A stretch of 33,272 nt of DNA from a virus: the IMG/VR virus record IMGVR_UViG_3300046517_001043, positions 1 through 33,272 of that record, one strand, 5' to 3'. The translations under genes were made by a program, and so were the position numbers. Of this stretch, positions 8,883-33,248 are shown piece by piece (position 1 is the stretch's first letter; each line of letters starts with the position of its first letter). Under the pieces are notes generated by a model. The model was not told where the DNA came from, did not search any database, and saw nothing but the letters and a program-made list of their open reading frames with translations.

Positions 8883-10940
8883 TCACACCACCAGGGACCG
8901 ATAGAGCTTCGCGGTGCCGTCGTCGCCGACCCAGAGCACGCCGAAGCAGTCCTTGAGAGCGACGAGGGACACCACGTCCCCGCCCGTCCAAGGGACTTGG
9001 ACGACTTGCCAAGTCAGGCCCTGGTCACCGGACCATGCCAGTTTGTCGACGCCGGCAAACGTCCCCTTGACGAGCCAGCTTCCGCCTAGGATCGCCATGT
9101 GCTGGATCGTGAGCCCGGCCGTCCCGGGGTTCTGCCAGACGACGCCGCCGCTCGAGGTGAAAATGTTGCCGCTGTGGGTCGCCATCACGAACAGGCTGTC
9201 CGTCGGCGACCATTCGAGAGCCACGCACGTCTGCCCGGTCAGAGGGCTCGGCGTCCCGTGCTCGGTGTACACGTCCCCGAAGCCGCTCGCCGTCCATGTT
9301 GACGTGACCGAACCGTCTACGGATACGAAGACCACGGCAGTGGGCGATACAGCTACGAAAGCAGCATCCGTCGTGTAACTCGAGGCGTTGGGCAACGTCT
9401 CCTCATTCGAGGCCGGCGCGGCCGTGTTGCTAGGTGTGAGATACCAGAGCGAGGGATGCGGAGTGCCCACGCTGGTGATGCCGGCCGCGCCGAACTTGGT
9501 ACCGTTGCCGTCTGCGATGATCCGGTAGAATTTGTAGGCCTCGTCGATCGCTGGGCTCGGCCCGATGATGTCGCCGTATGCATGACCCCCGCTCGCGCTC
9601 GGGCCGAAGCGGTAGAGCAGAGTTCCCGAGGCATTGAACAGCAACCCACCGAGAGAGTCGACGGCGACGCTCGAGCCGTCGCCGCCGAAATGCGCTGTAC
9701 CAGTCGCCGCGTCCGATGCGTTCGTGACCGCGGAGACGTTCGCGTTCGGCGTGAGGATTGTCGTGATGGTACCGCTCGCAGCCTCGACGGGCCCGTAGTA
9801 GGCCGGCGATCCCGGAGAGTAGATCGTGGCCGCATAGGGGCCCTTCGAGCCGCTTCCGCTCCAGCTGTGCCCGCCGTCCAATGTCCATACATGCGTTCCG
9901 TCGGAGTACGCGTCGCCTGCGGTGACGCTCCCGCTAGCCGTAGCGGTGAGCGTCAGGTTCACCGTGCTACGCGTCGGCGCATCGAGACCACCCATGTCGG
10001 ACCATTGGCGGCCGTCCGACGATTCGACCGGTGCCGTCACGCGGTCACGCACGAGTACCGCGAAGAGCGACTTGGTGACAGGGTTCCATGTCACGGCCTT
10101 CGAGGCATACGTAGGAAAGTAGAGCGCCGGGGGGTCCGCATAGACGGTGATCGTAGCGGTATCGCGAATCGTCACGGAGACGCTCACGATCTCGATGGAC
10201 GGATCTTGGGAGTTCGTCCCCCATTCATCTTCGATCGAAATCCAGTAGTGATTGGACGACCGATCGAGTTCGATCTCGGTGCCGCTGACTCCCACAACGT
10301 GGTTCGTTTTGTAGGTGCCCACGCTACCCGTCGCGTCGTCGGCTTCGGTGACTCCACCCAGGGAAACGCCAGCACCGTTCACGTCCGCCGCGATCAGCCG
10401 GATGATCGGCATGTGCTCCGGTAGGTTCGTGTGCCCGGAGGAGCCGATGATCTTCATCGCGAACCCGGTTACGACCGTGCCGTCCGGCAATTCGAGAGGG
10501 AAATGCACCGTCGAGCCGGTGCCGCCGTCGTCCGACTTGTGCCCCTTCCACTTCGGCGTCGCGAACGCGCTCGCTGAATAGAACGTGAATCCGGTTCCTG
10601 CGCCTCCGGCCTCGTAGCCGGATACTCCCATGTCGGAGAGGAGAATCGTCTTCGCGGTCAGCGTGCCGAAGTAGGTGCCCGCCCCGCCCTGACTGGCGAG
10701 AACGAGCCCAGCGTCCCAGTTCTTCGCCTCGATCCCGTCGAGGTAGGAGAGCCACCGATCGGTGGCGTTCAGCTTCCAACCGAGCTTCTCCGCCGGGAGG
10801 CGCTGCGAGGGTTTGAATCCCTGGGCGAGTTCGCCAGCGGAAAGCGAGACCTTGTTCGTCTGCCCGTCCCAGGGCTTGCCGGCGTCGTCGTACGTGTCGT
10901 CGGTGGCGAAGACGGGGAGAGGGCCAGCGGGGCGGGTCAT
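8883..10940 (-). CDS. Receptor-binding tail protein with BNR/propeller-like C-terminus
   Basis: A 685-residue late protein following the DUF2612-like gene, where host-recognition fibres usually lie. The N-terminus (about 1-80) looks like an attachment region. The centre is Gly/Ser/Thr-rich beta structure. The C-terminal half contains repeated blade-like units with S-x-D-x-G-x-x-W signatures (WSPTDSLFVMATHSG, then SSGGVVWQ and WSGDQGLTWQVV), typical of sialidase/BNR propellers. It should sit on the baseplate and bind a surface glycan. No enzymatic residues can be named. ATG start in an ATGA overlap. Confidence 0.68.
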   Translation of the reverse strand: MTRPAGPLPVFATDDTYDDAGKPWDGQTNKVSLSAGELAQGFKPSQRLPAEKLGWKLNATDRWLSYLDGIEAKNWDAGLVLASQGGAGTYFGTLTAKTILLSDMGVSGYEAGGAGTGFTFYSASAFATPKWKGHKSDDGGTGSTVHFPLELPDGTVVTGFAMKIIGSSGHTNLPEHMPIIRLIAADVNGAGVSLGGVTEADDATGSVGTYKTNHVVGVSGTEIELDRSSNHYWISIEDEWGTNSQDPSIEIVSVSVTIRDTATITVYADPPALYFPTYASKAVTWNPVTKSLFAVLVRDRVTAPVESSDGRQWSDMGGLDAPTRSTVNLTLTATASGSVTAGDAYSDGTHVWTLDGGHSWSGSGSKGPYAATIYSPGSPAYYGPVEAASGTITTILTPNANVSAVTNASDAATGTAHFGGDGSSVAVDSLGGLLFNASGTLLYRFGPSASGGHAYGDIIGPSPAIDEAYKFYRIIADGNGTKFGAAGITSVGTPHPSLWYLTPSNTAAPASNEETLPNASSYTTDAAFVAVSPTAVVFVSVDGSVTSTWTASGFGDVYTEHGTPSPLTGQTCVALEWSPTDSLFVMATHSGNIFTSSGGVVWQNPGTAGLTIQHMAILGGSWLVKGTFAGVDKLAWSGDQGLTWQVVQVPWTGGDVVSLVALKDCFGVLWVGDDGTAKLYRSLVV

Positions 10941-25053: not shown

Positions 25054-26025
25054 TCAGGTGGCCTTCATGCGGATAATCGTGTGCGGAATGGCGTACCCGC
25101 TGTTGCCGAAGAGCTTGCCGGCGTAGCGGATCGAGTTGGTCTGCGTCGCGTGCTCCGACCCGTCGCCGAGGATCTTGATGTCCGGGTCGTCCCACGCGCC
25201 GCGAGCCTGGGACTCGAACGGCCGCGCCGCGAGGTTGAGGGCGAGCGCGTACCACGTGGTGTCGCTGTCCGCGTCGAGTTCGGGAGCGATGATCGGCGTG
25301 AACGTACCGCGATGGATGTTCGACTCGGTGACGCCCGCCTGTGCCGAAGCCGTCGGGTCGATGTTGGGTAGGTACTCGGACGTCGAGAGGCGCGTGGCCA
25401 TGTCCTCGAGCGCGGTGGGAACGAGCACGTGCGTCAGGCGCAGGCCGAGCGACGTCTTCCCGTCCGGGGCCTTGTAGCCTCGGAAGAGGCTCTTCGCGTA
25501 GGCGAGGTTGGCGCGGTTGAACGGCCTGCTCGTCTTCGCGTTGTCGTAGGTGAGAGCGTTGCCGCCGCGGAAGTCGACCGGGTGGCCCGTGTCGAAGAAT
25601 CCTTGGCCGTCCCAGCAGTCGACAGCGTCACCGTTCGCGAGCAGGCCCGCGATGATTCGGTTAGGATGGATCATCGCGGCGACGCGCAGATCGTCCACCT
25701 CGTTGAGGTAGGCCGCGTACTGTCCCGAAAGAGCCACGTCGAGCGGCACGTCGATCGTCCGCTCCCACGGCTTCGACTCGATGAAGAACGAGGTGACGTC
25801 GATGTTCTTGCCGTCGCGATCACCAACCCACTCCCGAAAGCCGGGCATGGATCCGAGGCGGATCGGGAACTTGAGCAGCATTGCGTCCGTGGGCGAGAAG
25901 CCGGAAACGGTCTTCCACCACGGGTCGACCTTCGCCTGCAGAGCGTCGCGATAGCGAGCCTGGAAGGCGGTGACGAGTTCGACGACCTTGGGGTTGACGA
26001 GACCGATTGCGTTGACAGATCCCAT
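25054..26025 (-). CDS. Major capsid protein, Mu gpT-like
   Basis: A 323-residue capsid protein of the Mu T family. Key stretches are the N-terminal helix (VVELVTAFQARYRDAL), LGSMPGFREWVGDRDGKNI (gpT proteins share the x-REW-x-G-x-R signature), ESKPWERTIDVPLDVA and DGQGFFDTGHPVDFRGG. Without a delta domain it needs a separate scaffold, which is found nested in the protease gene. ATG start after a 9-base gap. Downstream genes continue with the connector series. Confidence 0.93.
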   Translation of the reverse strand: MGSVNAIGLVNPKVVELVTAFQARYRDALQAKVDPWWKTVSGFSPTDAMLLKFPIRLGSMPGFREWVGDRDGKNIDVTSFFIESKPWERTIDVPLDVALSGQYAAYLNEVDDLRVAAMIHPNRIIAGLLANGDAVDCWDGQGFFDTGHPVDFRGGNALTYDNAKTSRPFNRANLAYAKSLFRGYKAPDGKTSLGLRLTHVLVPTALEDMATRLSTSEYLPNIDPTASAQAGVTESNIHRGTFTPIIAPELDADSDTTWYALALNLAARPFESQARGAWDDPDIKILGDGSEHATQTNSIRYAGKLFGNSGYAIPHTIIRMKAT

Positions 26026-26034
26026 GGCTTCCTC

Positions 26035-26754
26035 TCAACCCACGATGAGCCAGGCGACGGTGGACGTGTCGGACGTGTCCGTGCCTGCGTTGTCGTTGAT
26101 CGACGTGATCACGATGGTCCCGGTGCTGGGCGCACCGACGACCGTGACGGCGGCCTTGTAGCCACTGGTGCCGAGCGTGCCGCCCGGGGTGACAAGCTGA
26201 ACGAACACCTGCGAACTCGAGGTGGTCGTGATGCCGGTCGAGACGGTGAGAACGCCAGTCGTGAGGGCGCCTTGTCCCGCCTGGATCCGCACACCTGTCG
26301 TCAGTTGCGTCGAGACCGCCGCAGCGGCTGCGCCGACGAGAACGCGCATGCAGCCGTTCTCCTCGTTGACGCCCATTAGGATTCCGGCCGGCGAGCGCGA
26401 GGTCGACACCTTGCCGACCGTCTGGTTGTCGACCGCGTAGACGACCGTACCGATGTCGCCGATGTGGAGGTCGTCCCCGCCGCCCGTCTTGCCGACGAGG
26501 TCGAAGACGCCCTGAAGGCAGTCGACGGTCAGATCGCCGTCGTTGAAGTCCGTGGCATCGCAGTCCTGCCAGGCGATGCCGGCCGAGGTGTAGCCGCTGG
26601 CCGCGGTCGCCTCGACGACATAGCCGTCGGAGTTTCGCATGAGGAGCCACCCCTGTTTGAACGTCTCGTCAGCCGCGACGTCACCCTTGATGCGTTCGGG
26701 CAGAGCGTCCTCGCCCTGCTTCGAAATAATCCGCCGTTCCGTTGCCGCGGTCAT
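26035..26754 (-). CDS. Head decoration protein with extra beta domain
   Basis: A 239-residue protein. Residues 1 to about 125 look like a capsid decoration fold (IISKQGEDALPERIKGD, AGIAWQDCDATDFNDGDLTV). A C-terminal Thr/Val/Gly-rich beta domain follows (VRIQAGQGALTTGVLTVS, GTIVITSINDNAG), which may be displayed on the head. ATG (26754) in an ATGA overlap with the protease stop. The longer frame upstream is a shadow of the protease. Order protease, decoration, capsid is conserved. Confidence 0.75.
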   Translation of the reverse strand: MTAATERRIISKQGEDALPERIKGDVAADETFKQGWLLMRNSDGYVVEATAASGYTSAGIAWQDCDATDFNDGDLTVDCLQGVFDLVGKTGGGDDLHIGDIGTVVYAVDNQTVGKVSTSRSPAGILMGVNEENGCMRVLVGAAAAAVSTQLTTGVRIQAGQGALTTGVLTVSTGITTTSSSQVFVQLVTPGGTLGTSGYKAAVTVVGAPSTGTIVITSINDNAGTDTSDTSTVAWLIVG

Positions 26755-27305
26755 GCCGCGCTCCCTTCCCCGGCACCGGCCGGATGTTGCGCGGACATGG
26801 CCGCAGTGATCTCGCTCTTGCCGCGGGCGTAGGCCTCGGCGGAGACGCCAAGGCGGGCCGCGCGCGCGCGGTCGATGTCGTTGGGGCCGTCGGCCATCGG
26901 CTTCGGAGCGCTTGAGCCGAGCGCCGGAGCGGTCCGGATCTTCGAGGCCATCGCGCGGAGGTTGACGATCGGCATCGAGGCCCAGTCGGCCGCCACGCCC
27001 TTCGCCTTGTTCGGAGCGCCAACCTCGTCGAGAGCCCAGGCGTTCGCCGCGTCGAGCGCGCCGCCCACCACCAGCTTCGTCACGAGCTCGACGCGTTCGC
27101 GCGCCTCGGCCTGCTCGGTGCGCGCCTTCTCGGCCGCCTCGAGTTCCTGGGCACGGGCCGCCAAGGCCCGGAGGGCCCCCAGCGACGCGAGGGCGTCCTG
27201 CGTGTTGGCAGCCCCGGTCACCGCCATTACGGCGCGCCCGAGGCCTGCGAGTTCTGCGTCCTCTTCGCGCGCCGAAAGGCCCGCCGGCTGGTTCTGTTTG
27301 GTCAT
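26751..27305 (-). CDS. Nested scaffold protein from internal start
   Basis: In-frame ATG at 27305 (codon 282 of the protease gene) is preceded by GGAGAAG with the GGAG 6 bases upstream, a better ribosome site than most in this region. The 184-residue product (MTKQNQPAGLSAREED at the start) contains the helical scaffold only. This matches lambda C/Nu3 and Mu I/Z, where the scaffold is made from an internal start in the protease gene. It would be needed to assemble the gpT-like capsid. Confidence 0.72.
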   Translation of the reverse strand: MTKQNQPAGLSAREEDAELAGLGRAVMAVTGAANTQDALASLGALRALAARAQELEAAEKARTEQAEARERVELVTKLVVGGALDAANAWALDEVGAPNKAKGVAADWASMPIVNLRAMASKIRTAPALGSSAPKPMADGPNDIDRARAARLGVSAEAYARGKSEITAAMSAQHPAGAGEGSAA

Positions 27306-28148
27306 GTTCTTCTCCGCGCGGCTCATGGCCGACGAGATTGCGTCCTCGAGACTGCCGACCCGATCGGCGAGGCCCTTTTTCACCGCCTGCTTGCCGCGCG
27401 CGGTGGCGCCCTCGAGTGCAAGCCAGTCGTCGGCGGTCTCGCCACGACTTGAGGCCACGAGAGCTGCGAAGGCCTGCGCATGCGCCTGCACGCGCGCCTG
27501 GATCACCGCGCGCCCGTCGTCGGCGAGCGGCTCGAGCGAAGAGGGAACGGCCTTTTGCGACCCGGAGCGGATGATGGTGGGCCGGATGCCAGCCTGCGCG
27601 TACGCGCCCGAAGCGTCGAAGTGAACGCAGAGGCAACCAATCGAGCCGACTTCGCCGGTCTCGGGAAGGATGATCTCGGAGGCGACGCAGGCAATCGCGT
27701 AGGCCGCACTCGCCGCAAGCTCATCGACGTAGGCGACCACCGGTTTCCCAGAGGCCGCAACGGCGGATCGCATTCGGCGGACGGCCTCGGCCATGCCGGC
27801 CGCGTCACCGCCAGGGGAGTCGATGCGCAGGACCACCGCGTCGACGTCCTCGTCCTCGAGCGCAGCACCGAGGCGCGCCTCGAGCGAGTCGTAGCCGTCC
27901 ACGAAGGCGCAGAGGCCGTCGACGTAGGCGCGCTGGGCGACGGGGCCGAACATGTCGACCACCGCAACTCTGATCTTCGGAGCGCTCGTGGCGACCTGCA
28001 TCGAGTGGAACTCGAGCTCGGGGGCCTGCGAGAGAAGCCGCACCGGCACCGAGAGGGCGCGCGCGTCGAGCGCAAGGACGTCGCTCGCGGCGACTTGCGC
28101 CAGCGTCTCCCGGGTAATCTCTGCCGTGCGGATCGTCCCTGAACGCAT
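26751..28148 (-). CDS. Prohead protease (S49/SppA-like) fused to scaffold
   Basis: A 465-residue protein. Residues about 58-275 form an S49 serine peptidase domain: VVLRIDSPGGDAAGM, nucleophile Ser147 in ELAASAAYAIAC and the likely base Lys199 in SGSQKAVPSSLEPL. From 282 to the end is a helical, Ala/Glu-rich scaffold region. It matures the prohead by cutting scaffold and possibly itself. The ATG follows promoter TTGACG-N16-TATGCT with tandem operators. There is a good internal start for the scaffold alone (separate entry). Confidence 0.92.
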   Translation of the reverse strand: MRSGTIRTAEITRETLAQVAASDVLALDARALSVPVRLLSQAPELEFHSMQVATSAPKIRVAVVDMFGPVAQRAYVDGLCAFVDGYDSLEARLGAALEDEDVDAVVLRIDSPGGDAAGMAEAVRRMRSAVAASGKPVVAYVDELAASAAYAIACVASEIILPETGEVGSIGCLCVHFDASGAYAQAGIRPTIIRSGSQKAVPSSLEPLADDGRAVIQARVQAHAQAFAALVASSRGETADDWLALEGATARGKQAVKKGLADRVGSLEDAISSAMSRAEKNMTKQNQPAGLSAREEDAELAGLGRAVMAVTGAANTQDALASLGALRALAARAQELEAAEKARTEQAEARERVELVTKLVVGGALDAANAWALDEVGAPNKAKGVAADWASMPIVNLRAMASKIRTAPALGSSAPKPMADGPNDIDRARAARLGVSAEAYARGKSEITAAMSAQHPAGAGEGSAA

Positions 28149-28160
28149 GCTCAGGGGCCT

Positions 28161-28188
28161 AGCATACGTGAACGGACGTTCACGTCAA
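28161..28188 (-). promoter_or_regulatory. Late promoter for the head/tail operon
   Basis: On the - strand TTGACG (28188-28183), a 16-base spacer and TATGCT (28166-28161). The -10 ends 12 bases before the ATG at 28148. Both boxes match sigma-70 consensus at 5 and 4 of 6. The spacer is almost exactly filled by the palindrome at 28168-28183, and the -35 overlaps the second palindrome. Repression by a protein bound there would be direct. Confidence 0.72.
28168..28183. promoter_or_regulatory. Late operator, proximal copy
   Basis: GTGAAC-GGAC-GTTCAC, a perfect 6+6 palindrome lying between the -35 and -10 of the protease promoter. It abuts the next palindrome without a gap. The core GAAC-N4-GTTC is the shape of the Gram-positive-type LexA box. 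Confidence 0.78.
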
Positions 28189-28199
28189 CAAAAGTTCAC
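28184..28199. promoter_or_regulatory. Late operator, distal copy
   Basis: GTCAAC-AAAA-GTTCAC, one mismatch from the perfect palindrome. The changed half is read on the other strand as GTTGAC and supplies the -35 box, so the mismatch is explained by promoter function. It directly abuts the proximal copy. Confidence 0.75.
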
Positions 28200-28202
28200 A
28201 CC

Positions 28203-29348
28203 TCAGCGGTCGCGGACTGTGGTAGCGACCGTCAGCGCCTGCAAATCAGCCGATTCCTCGGCGCCGGTGGCCCCGCCGAGAAGGTAGGCCGTCGCAGGCA
28301 AGGTGATGGCGCTTACAGCTACACCGGTCGTCGAGCCGCTCCCCGACGTGGCTCCGCTTACGGTGAGCGTTCGACCGCTGGCGAGATGCCGGACCCGGAC
28401 CGTCAACGCCTGGTTGCGGCTCCACGTCAGTGCAGAACTGACCACGTCGGCCCCGCCGATGCGTAGCACCACCTTGTGATCCGACTGGCGAATGAACGCG
28501 CGATCGTTCGAGCCGAAATACACCAGGTTGTGATCCGCGGCCTGCTCGGCCTGCGTGTAGTGCGGCGCTACGACGAGCGAGATGTCGAAGAATCCCCCGC
28601 GAGCGATCTGCGCCGGGGCGGCAACCGTGAGCACGTCGGCGGCACGCGCCCCCACGATGAAGCTCGATGGATAGGCCCCCACCTCGGACTGCGAGCCGAA
28701 GAGGTAGCAGGAGAAAGCCGAATTCAAGGCCACGCCGTCGTCGAGCCGGTGTTGAAGATTGGTGGCGCCATCGCCGGTCCCAGTGTTGGCGAACCGTGTC
28801 CACGTGGACGTGATGGCTGCGGCGACCTCGGTGATGTTCTGACTGCCGAACATCGCCCGCGATCCGCTCAGCAGCCGCGCCCAAAAGCTCATTGTGTACT
28901 TCGTGCCGTTGGCTGACGGGGCAAGCAATCCCTGATTGATGCGGTAGTCGTTCGCCACTCCGCTCCCGTCATATGAGAGCTTGTCCTCCACGTTGCTGCC
29001 CGCAGGATCGGCCACGTCGCCCGAGTCGGCCGCGACCGTAACCCCCGTGTTCTTGGTCCACGATCCGCCGCTGTAGACGTTCGGATTCGCCACGAGGTTC
29101 GTGCGCGCGCTCTCGACCGATAGGCCCCACGTCGAGCCGTCGACGCTGCGAGCTCGAGACGCATTCGCGCCGAAGCCCGTGCGCAGCGTGCTGGCCGACG
29201 TCTGGACCGTGCGGCCGGTCGTGGCGCACGTGATGGCGAGCCACGAGGGGAGAACGAAGACGCCTGAACTCTGCTCCGCCGTCCGGAAGTCGAGGTGATG
29301 TTGCACCCGAGTCCGCGCCGACCAGAGGCCCAGGCCGAACCCGATCAC
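28203..29348 (-). CDS. Putative head spike fibre, carbohydrate-binding
   Basis: A 381-residue protein. GLSVESARTNLVANPNV is a signature of phage carbohydrate-binding appendages, followed by a CBM-like beta sandwich (YTMSFWARLLSGSRAMFG, WTRFANTGTGDG) and a second LamG-like domain (FDISLVVAPHYTQAEQ, VVLRIGGADVVSSALTW). GTG start 4 bases after the spike-base gene. Pairing with an Rcc01079-like base protein suggests the GhsA/GhsB head spikes of the Rhodobacter gene transfer agent, which bind host capsule. The alternative is a tail fibre displaced among head genes. Confidence 0.62.
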   Translation of the reverse strand: MIGFGLGLWSARTRVQHHLDFRTAEQSSGVFVLPSWLAITCATTGRTVQTSASTLRTGFGANASRARSVDGSTWGLSVESARTNLVANPNVYSGGSWTKNTGVTVAADSGDVADPAGSNVEDKLSYDGSGVANDYRINQGLLAPSANGTKYTMSFWARLLSGSRAMFGSQNITEVAAAITSTWTRFANTGTGDGATNLQHRLDDGVALNSAFSCYLFGSQSEVGAYPSSFIVGARAADVLTVAAPAQIARGGFFDISLVVAPHYTQAEQAADHNLVYFGSNDRAFIRQSDHKVVLRIGGADVVSSALTWSRNQALTVRVRHLASGRTLTVSGATSGSGSTTGVAVSAITLPATAYLLGGATGAEESADLQALTVATTVRDR

Positions 29349-29352
29349 GCGG

Positions 29353-29643
29353 TCACCAGAAGACGATCATCGGGATCGCGCTCGTCCCCGAGTCGATGAT
29401 CTTCGTCGCCTGGATCGGAAGGTGGTCGCCGCCGAGCAACGGGGAGAGGGTCTCCGACGTCTGCCCCGGGAGCAGGTCCGCCGGCACGACGACGAGGTCG
29501 CCATCGGCAAGGACCCGGATCGCGCGGCACGGCCCGCCGCCGAGCGCCACGAGGTCAATGTCCGCCGAAACGGTGGTGATCATCTTGAACCGAGCCGACG
29601 AAAACAGCGCGTCGGGGTCGTTCGAGGCAATAGGGGCGGTCAC
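29353..29643 (-). CDS. Putative spike base protein, RCAP_Rcc01079-like
   Basis: A 96-residue beta protein. The core CRAIRVLADGDLVVV and the end LLGGDHLPIQATKIIDSGTS (in outline) plus AIPMIVFW closely follow the pattern of the Rcc01079 spike-base family (RAIYVG-x-G-DLAV, then LPVRVxRVxxTGTxAxxIVxLW). In the Rhodobacter gene transfer agent this protein anchors head spikes. The GTG start is 6 bases after the -10 box of the divergent promoter, so the message is probably leaderless. The longer upstream frame reads antisense through the portal start. Confidence 0.66.
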   Translation of the reverse strand: MTAPIASNDPDALFSSARFKMITTVSADIDLVALGGGPCRAIRVLADGDLVVVPADLLPGQTSETLSPLLGGDHLPIQATKIIDSGTSAIPMIVFW

Positions 29644-29649
29644 GCGCGT

Positions 29650-29678
29650 ATGATCCCGCGCCACTGAACGCACGTCAA
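29650..29678 (-). promoter_or_regulatory. Divergent promoter, - side (head spike genes)
   Basis: On the - strand TTGACG (29678-29673), a 17-base spacer and GATCAT (29655-29650, 4 of 6 matches). The -10 ends 6 bases before the GTG at 29643, again implying a leaderless transcript. The -35 overlaps the degenerate operator copy. Confidence 0.5.
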
Positions 29679-29679
29679 G
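29664..29679. promoter_or_regulatory. Degenerate operator copy between divergent promoters
   Basis: CTGAAC-GCAC-GTCAAG matches the GTGAAC-N4-GTTCAC palindrome at 8 of 12 positions. One half-site (TGAAC) is intact and the other half supplies a TTGACG -35 box. It lies between the portal and spike-base starts. A single weak site could give leakier or earlier expression than the tandem sites. Confidence 0.45.
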
Positions 29680-29688
29680 TGCTATCGT
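29680..29688 (+). promoter_or_regulatory. Divergent promoter, + side (portal), extended -10
   Basis: TG-C-TATCGT is an extended -10 element. Its end is 6 bases before the portal ATG at 29695, so the portal message would be leaderless. No good -35 is seen at 17 bases, as allowed for extended -10 promoters. Confidence 0.45.
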
Positions 29689-29694
29689 CCGGCC

Positions 29695-31098
29695 ATGGCC
29701 CGCCGTCGTTCCTCCTCTGCCAGTTCCGTCTCCGCCTCCTCGTCCCTTGTGGCCGGTCGTGCCTCTGCTACCGCCCCCGAACAGGCGCCCGCAGCGCCTC
29801 CCCTCTCGACGGACGCGGCCTACCTTTCGCACCCCTTCGAGCCGCTGCCGCCGCTCACACTCTCGAGCTGGGACATCAGCCGGATCCGCGAAGCGCGAGA
29901 CGCGCACGTGCTCGGCCAGTTCCAGGCAAGCGCCGTACTCGCCGACGCCCTCATGACCGACGGGCGGATCTACCAGGCGACGACGCAACGGATCGGCCCG
30001 CCGCTCGGCATCGCCCGCGAGGTGATCGGCGGCTCGCGCTGGAACGGCAAGGGCCTCACCGAGACCGTGCGGGTAGGTGTCCAGGAGATTCTCCTCGGCC
30101 CAGGCCCCGCCCCGGCACTCGGCCCTGCCACGCTGGCGCCTATCTTCCTCTCGCTCGCGGTCATGGGCGTCTGCATCCTGCAGGTGATCCGCCGTCCTCG
30201 CGCGGACGGCTCACGCATCGACGTCGAGCTGCGCCCGTGGCCGCTGCAGCAGGCCTACTGGAACGAAGCTATCCGCCGCTACGTGCTCTTTTCGACGGAC
30301 GGCCCGATCGAGGTCACGCCGAACGACGGCAAATGGATCGTGATCGAGCCGTGGGGGCCGCGCTCGTTCAAGCTCGGCGCGATCCGCGCGCTCGCGCTCC
30401 TCTGGGCCGACCGCGCGTACGCGCAGCGTGATCGAAGCAACCACAGCGCCGCGCACGGCTCGGTCAACATCGTCGGCACGCTCCCCGAGGGCGTGAAGGT
30501 GCGGAGCCCAGAGGGCGCCGCCTTCCGCGACGCCGTACGGCTCCTGCAGCAAGCACGGAGCGGAATCATCCTGCCTGACGGCTCGAAGGTCGCGCCGTTC
30601 GAGCCGCAAACGCAGGCCTCGAAGATTTTCGACAGCATCATCGACTCCGACAACGGGGACATCGCGCTCTGTTTGCTTGGAATCCTTCCGGGCGGGGACG
30701 GCACGTACAAGCCGATCCCGCAGCTCGACGGCGTGCGATACGACCTCGTGCGCCTCGACATCGGCGCGGCCGAGTCGCAGTTGCAGACTGGCCTCGTTCG
30801 GCCGGTGACGGCGTGGAATTGGGGGGACGATCCCGAACTCGTGCCTGCGTACCGCTGGCTCGTTCCGGACCCCCGCGAGATCGAACGCGTCGACGCCGAA
30901 GCGCGCCACCATGCTGCGCTTTCGACGACGCTTCAGGCCTACCGCGGCGCGGGACTGCTCGTCGACCAGCCACTCGTCAATCGCCTCGCGGCGCGCTTCG
31001 GTATTTCACCGGCGCCACTGCTCGATCCGAACCCGCCGCAACCCGCCGCTGCAGCGCCGGATCCGTTCGCGCCGCCGCCTCCGGCGCCCACCGGCTAG
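29695..31098 (+). CDS. Portal protein (DUF935/Mu gp29-like), on the strand opposite to other late genes
   Basis: A 467-residue protein. A low-complexity Ser/Ala N-terminus leads to DISRIREARDAHVLGQFQ, SAVLADALMTDGRIYQATTQRIGPPLG, FKLGAIRALALLWADRAYAQRD and QTQASKIFDSIIDSDNGDIALCLLG (in outline). This follows Mu-like DUF935 portals: a helical N-terminal part, a clip/stem in the middle and a helical wing, then a Pro-rich tail. It forms the 12-fold ring through which DNA passes. All other structural genes are on the - strand. Its stop shares CTAG with the terminase stop. No - strand frame here resembles a portal, so the inversion is real in this sequence. Confidence 0.82.
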   Translation: MARRRSSSASSVSASSSLVAGRASATAPEQAPAAPPLSTDAAYLSHPFEPLPPLTLSSWDISRIREARDAHVLGQFQASAVLADALMTDGRIYQATTQRIGPPLGIAREVIGGSRWNGKGLTETVRVGVQEILLGPGPAPALGPATLAPIFLSLAVMGVCILQVIRRPRADGSRIDVELRPWPLQQAYWNEAIRRYVLFSTDGPIEVTPNDGKWIVIEPWGPRSFKLGAIRALALLWADRAYAQRDRSNHSAAHGSVNIVGTLPEGVKVRSPEGAAFRDAVRLLQQARSGIILPDGSKVAPFEPQTQASKIFDSIIDSDNGDIALCLLGILPGGDGTYKPIPQLDGVRYDLVRLDIGAAESQLQTGLVRPVTAWNWGDDPELVPAYRWLVPDPREIERVDAEARHHAALSTTLQAYRGAGLLVDQPLVNRLAARFGISPAPLLDPNPPQPAAAAPDPFAPPPPAPTG

Positions 31099-32624
31099 AG
31101 GAATCGCCCGCCGCTCGAGTCAGCGATGAACGCCTCAGCGAACGTATCGCTCCGTTCGTAGCGCTTGTCTCCTGCGCCGACGCGCCGCTGCTCCTCGCCG
31201 GTGTCCACCGCCCACCGCTGCGCCGGGGCGTCGGCGTTGAGTTCGCGCAGGCCCGCGGCCATGTCGGGATCGCGCTCGAGAGCGTCCTCGAGGTCGGCGA
31301 GTTCGAACGCGCCCCAGACGAGCGCGTCAAGGCGGTTCGGCGACGGCCCGCCGCCGGCGGGGTCCCACTCGGTCATCTCCTGCTCGAGCTCGACGAACCG
31401 TCCGACGTGCGCCACGCGCTCACGGGCGTAGAGCGCCGCCACGGGCTCCGCGCGGGTTTCTTTCCCCCGACTCGCCCGGACAAGCGCGATGCCCAATGAC
31501 GCCCGACGAGCACGGAGGTTCGCCTGTACCAGGTCCCCGCCCCGGTTCGTCTCGGCGACAACGAGCACGCCGCCGTCCGTGCGCGGCTTCCACCGGTCGA
31601 CGGCAGCCACAACGATCGCCGCCCACTCCTCGGGCTTGTGCTTTCCCGACAGGTCCTCGAGCACCACCAGGCGCGGGTCGTCCTCCCCGTCGGGAGCGTC
31701 GACGAGCCCGAGCACCAGGACCCCCGTCTCGTCCGAGTCCCGCGACGTGGACACCGCCGGGTCGACGGCGACGACGACGCGAGCGAGCTTCGGCCACACG
31801 CCGGTTTCGATCCGTGTGCGATCGATCGTGACCTCGGAGAACATCCCGCCCGCGTCCTCGAGGAGCTCCCCCTCGAGCTCTTGGCGGCCGAGCCTCGTGC
31901 CGCCGTACTTGCGGTCCATCGCCGCGAGCCACGCCGCGTCCAGGTTCGCCGAGTTGTCGCTCGTCTTCCCGCGGAGCACGCGCACCGTAGGATCGGCGAG
32001 CAGTTCACGCAGGAGCTTGATTTTCTTCGGCGTCGTGGTGAACAGCGCCGCCGGCGGCTGCGCGCCCACGCGCCGGAGCGTCATCTCGAGGTTCGGCCAG
32101 AGGGCCTCGAGGTAGCGCCACTTCGCGAGCTCGTCACCCCAGATCGTGTCCAGGTTCGGCCCGCGCATCTCGGGCTCTTCGGCCGAGAAGATCTGCGCCG
32201 TAGCCCCAGTCCAGAACGTCACCCGCCGTTTCGACGCCTCCCACTTCGGCCGCTTGTCCGGCGGCCAGAGGTTGAGCAGCCCCTCCGCGCGCGGGCCGTA
32301 GCCGCTCGGGTCCTTTCCCTCGCCGAGCACGTCGTTTCGGATGTCCTGCAGGGTGGCTCCCACCAGCCCGATCGCGCGGGCCGTACCCGAGTCGACGCGC
32401 TCGCGGATCCACTGGGCGCCGGCCTTGGACTTCCCGAACCCGCGCCCCGCGAGCATCAGGGTGATCCGCGCCCGCCCGTCGACGATCTGCGACGGGCGCG
32501 CCCACCACCGCCAGGCGTAGAGCAGCGAGGCGCGGTCCCGCGGCCGGAGCCGGGCCAGCATCGGCGCGCGCACCTCGCGCGGCAGGCGCGCCCAGCGCTC
32601 GGCGAGCGACAGTTCACGCGGCAC
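31095..32624 (-). CDS. terL: Terminase large subunit
   Basis: A 509-residue packaging motor. Walker A lies at about 58-67 (LAGRGFGKSK), Walker B at 161-165 (IWGDE) and the coupling motif at 196-200 (TTTPK). The C-terminal nuclease has its first acidic strand at 285-292 (VVAVDPAVS), then VVAETNRGGDLVQANLR and the final NRLDALVWGAFEL. It cuts the concatemer and drives DNA into the head through the portal. GTG start (32624) overlaps the small subunit stop by 11 bases. Confidence 0.96.
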   Translation of the reverse strand: MPRELSLAERWARLPREVRAPMLARLRPRDRASLLYAWRWWARPSQIVDGRARITLMLAGRGFGKSKAGAQWIRERVDSGTARAIGLVGATLQDIRNDVLGEGKDPSGYGPRAEGLLNLWPPDKRPKWEASKRRVTFWTGATAQIFSAEEPEMRGPNLDTIWGDELAKWRYLEALWPNLEMTLRRVGAQPPAALFTTTPKKIKLLRELLADPTVRVLRGKTSDNSANLDAAWLAAMDRKYGGTRLGRQELEGELLEDAGGMFSEVTIDRTRIETGVWPKLARVVVAVDPAVSTSRDSDETGVLVLGLVDAPDGEDDPRLVVLEDLSGKHKPEEWAAIVVAAVDRWKPRTDGGVLVVAETNRGGDLVQANLRARRASLGIALVRASRGKETRAEPVAALYARERVAHVGRFVELEQEMTEWDPAGGGPSPNRLDALVWGAFELADLEDALERDPDMAAGLRELNADAPAQRWAVDTGEEQRRVGAGDKRYERSDTFAEAFIADSSGGRFL

Positions 32625-33174
32625 GTTCGGCCTCGGCGAGCGCTACGAGCCGCTCGAGCTCGACCACCAGTTCCCGGCAGGCGGCGACCGTGTTGTCCGT
32701 GGCGTCGGGGTCCACCGGCGGCGGCGGGCGCAGCAGACGCACCCGCTCGGCGAGCTCGGCGATGATTCGCGCCCGCTTCGCCCTGGCGTCGAGGGTCCCC
32801 GTCCCGCGGGCGCCGGCCCCCTCGGACATGAGGGCCTCGAGTTCCTCGTCGAGGAAGTCGGCGATCGCCTCGACGCTGGAGCTCGAACCCGGGAGGCCTG
32901 TAGAGGGCCCTGGCTGCCCCGTGGCGGGACTGGGCCGCCCAGAGGGCCCCGAAGGAGCCTCGCCCCCGTCCGGGGCCTTCCTGCGCCGCCCTCGGTGCCC
33001 GGAACGGCCAGGAGGTACGGAGCCCGAGGTGGTGATCGCCCTCGACACGGCCCCGACCGACGTCCGCACCCCCTCCACCCCGAGCTGCGCGACGATGGCC
33101 CGGACCGTCGCGCCCTCCCGAACAAGCTCGAGGATTCGCTTTCGGGCCTTCGCATCTAGGTTGGATTTACTCAT
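32614..33174 (-). CDS. terS: Terminase small subunit
   Basis: A 186-residue protein. The N-terminal 50 residues are a helix-turn-helix (DAKARKRILELVREGATVRAIVAQLGVEG in outline, followed by SVGAVSRAI) that should bind the packaging site. A Pro/Gly/Ser-rich linker of about 45 residues follows, then a helical oligomerisation region. The ATG has a good GGAGG 5 bases upstream. Being next to the large subunit gene makes the assignment firm, although the linker is longer than usual. Confidence 0.85.
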   Translation of the reverse strand: MSKSNLDAKARKRILELVREGATVRAIVAQLGVEGVRTSVGAVSRAITTSGSVPPGRSGHRGRRRKAPDGGEAPSGPSGRPSPATGQPGPSTGLPGSSSSVEAIADFLDEELEALMSEGAGARGTGTLDARAKRARIIAELAERVRLLRPPPPVDPDATDNTVAACRELVVELERLVALAEAERAA

Positions 33175-33189
33175 GAAGGCCTCCGCACT

Positions 33190-33205
33190 GTGAACAAACG
33201 TTCAC
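33190..33205. promoter_or_regulatory. Terminase operator, proximal copy
   Basis: GTGAAC-AAAC-GTTCAC, a perfect 6+6 palindrome 16 bases upstream of the small terminase ATG, just before the GGAGG ribosome site. Confidence 0.78.
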
Positions 33206-33221
33206 GTGAACGCGCGTTCAC
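33206..33221. promoter_or_regulatory. Terminase operator, distal copy
   Basis: GTGAAC-GCGC-GTTCAC, a perfect palindrome that abuts the proximal copy with no gap. The tandem 32-bp layout is the same as at 28168-28199. Confidence 0.78.
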
Positions 33222-33248
33222 ATAACAGTAGCACTGGAACTGCTCCAA
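33219..33248 (-). promoter_or_regulatory. Possible terminase promoter
   Basis: On the - strand a TTGGAG-like -35 and TATGTG -10, about 18 bases apart, lie just upstream of the tandem operators. The -10 overlaps the start of the distal palindrome, so a bound repressor would cover the transcription start. The boxes are weak and other placements are possible. Confidence 0.3.

Follow-up and report, generated by a model that had tools for sequence, protein, structure and literature searches.

How a phage balances a dozen portal subunits against hundreds of capsid subunits per head has long been asked, mostly in phages that have both genes on one shared transcript. In the uncultured small contractile-tailed phage considered here (the window, 33,272 bases long, which spans an entire IMG/VR virus record), a Mu-type portal gene runs against all other late genes. 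We therefore asked whether this inversion is genuine, how often it has arisen, and whether it may give the portal a timing or dosage of its own.

Identity and setting of the inverted gene

An earlier sequence-only reading had called the + strand gene at 29695-31098 (467 aa) a portal, and homology and structure both bear this out. The ORF matches the Pfam family PF06074 (Portal_Mu, DUF935) with E=2.7e-13 and 50.4 bits, passing the gathering cut-off of 23.9, and its predicted structure, a model of moderate confidence (mean pLDDT 74.5) for which 13 related sequences were used, finds the portals of JBD30 (E=1.8e-12) and Mu (E=6.3e-10) as its best PDB matches in Foldseek. Codon usage in this + frame correlates at 0.89 with that of the pooled late genes, and no other frame exceeds 0.60. 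A portal lying elsewhere, which the same reading had named as the finding that would speak against its interpretation, was searched for in the record, and this ORF was the only PF06074 match.

The conserved LGQ-TT motif is absent from the window portal, which has LGILPGGD instead, and the protein stops early, missing the C-terminal stretch of Mx4-type portals. Both features are common in the portal family but are not criteria of the Pfam model, and because the record holds no other portal, their loss is read here as probable divergence within the family. The same losses, together with the long branch of this portal in our tree, could also suggest that what lies on the + strand is a decayed or additional copy and that the working portal lies outside the contig. 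We regard this as extremely improbable, given the intact 467-aa frame, the strong codon usage, the confidently predicted core fold and an otherwise fairly complete set of head and tail genes with no second portal among them.

The - strand encodes the terminase large subunit (TerL, 31095-32624), the S49 head-maturation protease (26751-28148), the gpT-type major capsid protein (25054-26025) and the proteins of sheath, tape measure, hub and baseplate, as had been described from the letters alone. It also encodes the probable terminase small subunit (TerS, 32614-33174), assigned by a weak HTH match and its position. The portal keeps its place between terminase and protease, with two small - strand genes separating it from the latter. 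The first of these (29353-29643, 96 aa, GTG start) opens the divergent unit and matches phrog_12296 'tail fiber' (E=5.8e-7), and the second (28203-29348, 381 aa), formerly proposed to encode a head spike, has no Pfam or PHROG match. The start previously given for the inverted segment, 29644, is one base beyond the GTG start of the 96-aa gene (29643). At the other end, the letters CTAG (31095-31098) contain the stop codons of both portal (+) and TerL (-), and the two genes thus overlap tail to tail. The integrase and early genes are also on the + strand (1 to about 5.2 kb), but the gene map of the window has no recognised + strand gene from about 6.3 kb up to the portal, so that a local portal promoter is needed. 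The Mu-like head module of the window has both gpT capsid and protease, gives no match to the gpF minor head protein (PF04233), and has head genes that are not co-directional, the portal being inverted.

Rarity and origins of the inversion

Head genes had been assumed to be normally co-directional, and we examined this assumption in a survey of gpT-type heads, gathered by capsid scans and portal scans blind to orientation and scored by portal orientation against the capsid gene, each distinct capsid sequence counting once. The two genes were co-directional in 146 of 150 loci and opposed in the other four, namely the window, the Salinibacter phages SRUTV-1 and M8CC-19, and the IMG/VR contig 3300023283_000166 (L016); these four are not an unbiased rate because the Salinibacter and L016 cases came from following inverted matches. 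Co-directionality is thus usual but not a rule, as the operon of portal and TerL in phage P2 also diverges. The sequence-only reading had asked whether the inversion is conserved in relatives. It is found in SRUTV-1, M8CC-19/M8CRM-1 and L016; among the portals from a scan directed at the clade of the window itself, 64 were co-directional and none was inverted. A scan with the L016 portal matched only L016 itself, and an alignment of ten portals was too diverse to serve as a scan query. No paper remarking on an inverted-portal layout was found in the literature searched. The layout of the window recurs, though rarely, as a variant of the known Mu-type head module.

The isolated Salinibacter phages SRUTV-1 (Kairosalinivirus) and M8CC-19/M8CRM-1 (Kryptosalinivirus) have a PF06074 portal opposite TerL, S49 protease and gpT capsid and, like the window, divergent from the head genes. 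Unlike the window, they have a second co-directional gene after the portal, TerL several kb away, an adaptor gp36 that faces the portal, and portals of a separate clade. In L016, as in the window, the portal has TerL on one side and the protease side of the head genes directly on the other, and is inverted against both. L016 differs in having a 165-aa gene after the portal, a TerL of another family and a portal that groups with those of the Salinibacter phages. The nearest isolated relative of the window is Myxococcus phage Mx4 (capsid 30.6% and portal 26.7% identical), in which TerL, portal and capsid are all co-directional and the gpF minor head gene is present. The small co-directional gene that follows the inverted portal in the Salinibacter/L016 lineage (L016 11283-11780; L005 5579-6124; L009 10451-11074) has no family match and possibly encodes a neck or virion morphogenesis protein.

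In the portal tree, the window portal groups with the Mx4/L097-type portals, all of which are co-directional, and not with those of the Salinibacter phages and L016, which make up a separate clade (support 100/99). A single origin of the inversion was recovered in 0% of bootstraps and was rejected by the AU test (p=0.026). Because the window portal groups apart from the Salinibacter/L016 clade, the inversion appears to have arisen at least twice independently, for which the evidence is good but not final, the long branch of the window portal weakening the tree. Besides the window, gpF gave no match in the inverted L016, SRUTV-1 and M8CC-19 or in the co-directional L097, and it was found in Mx4, Riverbug and L098. 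Loss of gpF may permit inversion; it would not be its cause, because the co-directional L097 is also without gpF.

These comparisons also bear on whether the portal segment was flipped during metagenome assembly, which might be suspected since the record consists of one contig from an uncultured phage and no close relative was found (single-protein scans with the window portal or TerL returned none). However, the inverted repeats that flank the segment are short and imperfect, none being long or well matched, which makes repeat-driven misassembly unlikely. The junctions are also tidy, with CTAG common to both stops at one end and promoter elements in the gap at the other, and the same layout is present in isolated Salinibacter phages and in L016. 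We thus consider an assembly error very improbable and the inversion a genuine, rare layout.

Promoter-like sites and operators

The divergent gap (29644-29694, 51 bp) contains two overlapping promoter-like sites, in agreement with the earlier proposal that the portal has its own extended -10 element facing an opposing promoter. The element TGCTATCGT (29680-29688, +) is real as sequence and well placed, ending 6 nt before the portal ATG, a placement found for 1 of the 538 ATGs in the window. The predicted transcription start falls on the ATG itself, which would fit a leaderless mRNA. On the opposite strand, the sigma-70-like TTGACG-17-GATCAT (29650-29678, -) has a -10 that ends 6 nt short of the GTG start (29643). 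Both promoters are predicted from consensus matches. The sequence TGNTANNNT has only three copies on both strands of the window, at 29680 (+, portal), at 33233 (-, upstream of TerS) and at 9497; the TerS sister of the portal -10 is TGCTACTGT, and the extended -10 form AGTGCTAYYGT is common to both promoters.

The portal start has no good Shine-Dalgarno site (-1.7 kcal/mol, compared with -9.5 for TerS). The protease site is also weak (-2.4) and weak sites occur at other late genes, so that the portal is not singled out. Promoter-like sites lie 6, 6 and 12 nt before the starts of the small fibre gene (29643), the portal (29695) and the protease (28148), respectively, and these three genes, all with poor Shine-Dalgarno sites, may be read as leaderless or near-leaderless late mRNAs. 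Because the two sites in the gap overlap, both promoters are unlikely to be occupied by polymerases at once. Antisense read-through is possible at the far end of the gene, since a search of the junction of portal and TerL gave no terminator.

A palindrome, GTGAACNNNCGTTCAC, occurs exactly at 33190, 33206 and 28168 and nearly exactly at 28184, arranged as tandem pairs with 16-bp spacing upstream of TerS (GTGAACAAACGTTCAC and GTGAACGCGCGTTCAC, 33190-33221) and in and beside the protease promoter (GTGAACGGACGTTCAC and GTCAACAAAAGTTCAC, 28168-28199). Shuffled sequence gave no copy of it. Its core, GAAC-N4-GTTC, resembles a LexA (SOS) box, and by this likeness LexA or a repressor of the phage may control the late genes. 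No significant copy was detected in the portal gap, where the best site scores 8/12, a value reached by 11% of random stretches. Separate control of the portal would be compatible with this absence.

Possible consequences for portal supply

From what the sequence shows (which gene this is, its strand, the promoter-like motifs, the stop it shares with TerL and the recurrence of the layout elsewhere), we judge it reasonably likely that a real and rare inversion has given the portal its own leaderless transcript, overlapping promoters and a low, fixed output; leaderless transcription, mutual exclusion and low dosage are what we infer from these features. Late transcription would thereby fall into three units. 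Two are on the - strand, one with TerS and TerL and the other running from the small fibre gene to protease, capsid and tail. The third is the + strand portal, which would be transcribed without a leader from its extended -10 promoter and meets TerL tail to tail. As the portal promoter and the opposing one overlap in the 51-bp gap, polymerases would probably exclude each other, which may hold portal output fixed and low.

The inversion had been taken to imply separate timing or dosage, and orientation alone is insufficient for this. In the P2 record, as in the window, the portal is transcribed divergently from the capsid operon; the P2 portal belongs to a different portal family, and unlike in the window, portal Q and TerL P are together in one operon that diverges from O/N. 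One activator site serves both divergent P2 promoters, and divergence therefore does not by itself mean separate timing. By comparison with such a bidirectional promoter, the portal gap of the window has only promoter-like sites. It is plausible, at a probability clearly below that of the favoured explanation, that the inversion is a neutral, P2-like rearrangement, in which a common late regulator or constitutive late transcription leaves timing and dosage unchanged. The divergence of Q/P from O/N under one activator site, the placement of the window's two divergent promoters in one 51-bp gap and the extended -10 form shared by portal and TerS all fit this alternative, whereas the exact tandem operators at TerS and protease, which lack a counterpart in the portal gap, do not. 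Of the sequence-only reading, what is supported is that the gene is a portal, that it is inverted and that it needs a promoter of its own. Separate timing or dosage of the portal, in favour of which speaks the portal gap without a recognisable operator, is possible but unproven.

A further reading goes beyond our preferred explanation of low, fixed output from competing promoters, and is in our opinion rather unlikely: the inversion would place the portal outside a phage-wide repressor regulon acting through the GTGAACNNNCGTTCAC operators, so that an operator-free, leaderless, competing promoter would set its supply independently of the capsid. If this were true, convergent inversions in unrelated phages would point to selection on portal dosage. 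Phages with an independently relocated portal unit may serve as natural tests of the need for operon coupling between portal and capsid.

A minor observation concerns the terminase. The TerL relatives Polewnik, ctuI7215 and LS06 were set aside after giving no match in the Mu-type portal search. TerL of the window (31095-32624) shares about 41% identity with its counterpart in Brevundimonas phages, whose heads are otherwise unlike that of the window, which seems to be a sign of module mosaicism.
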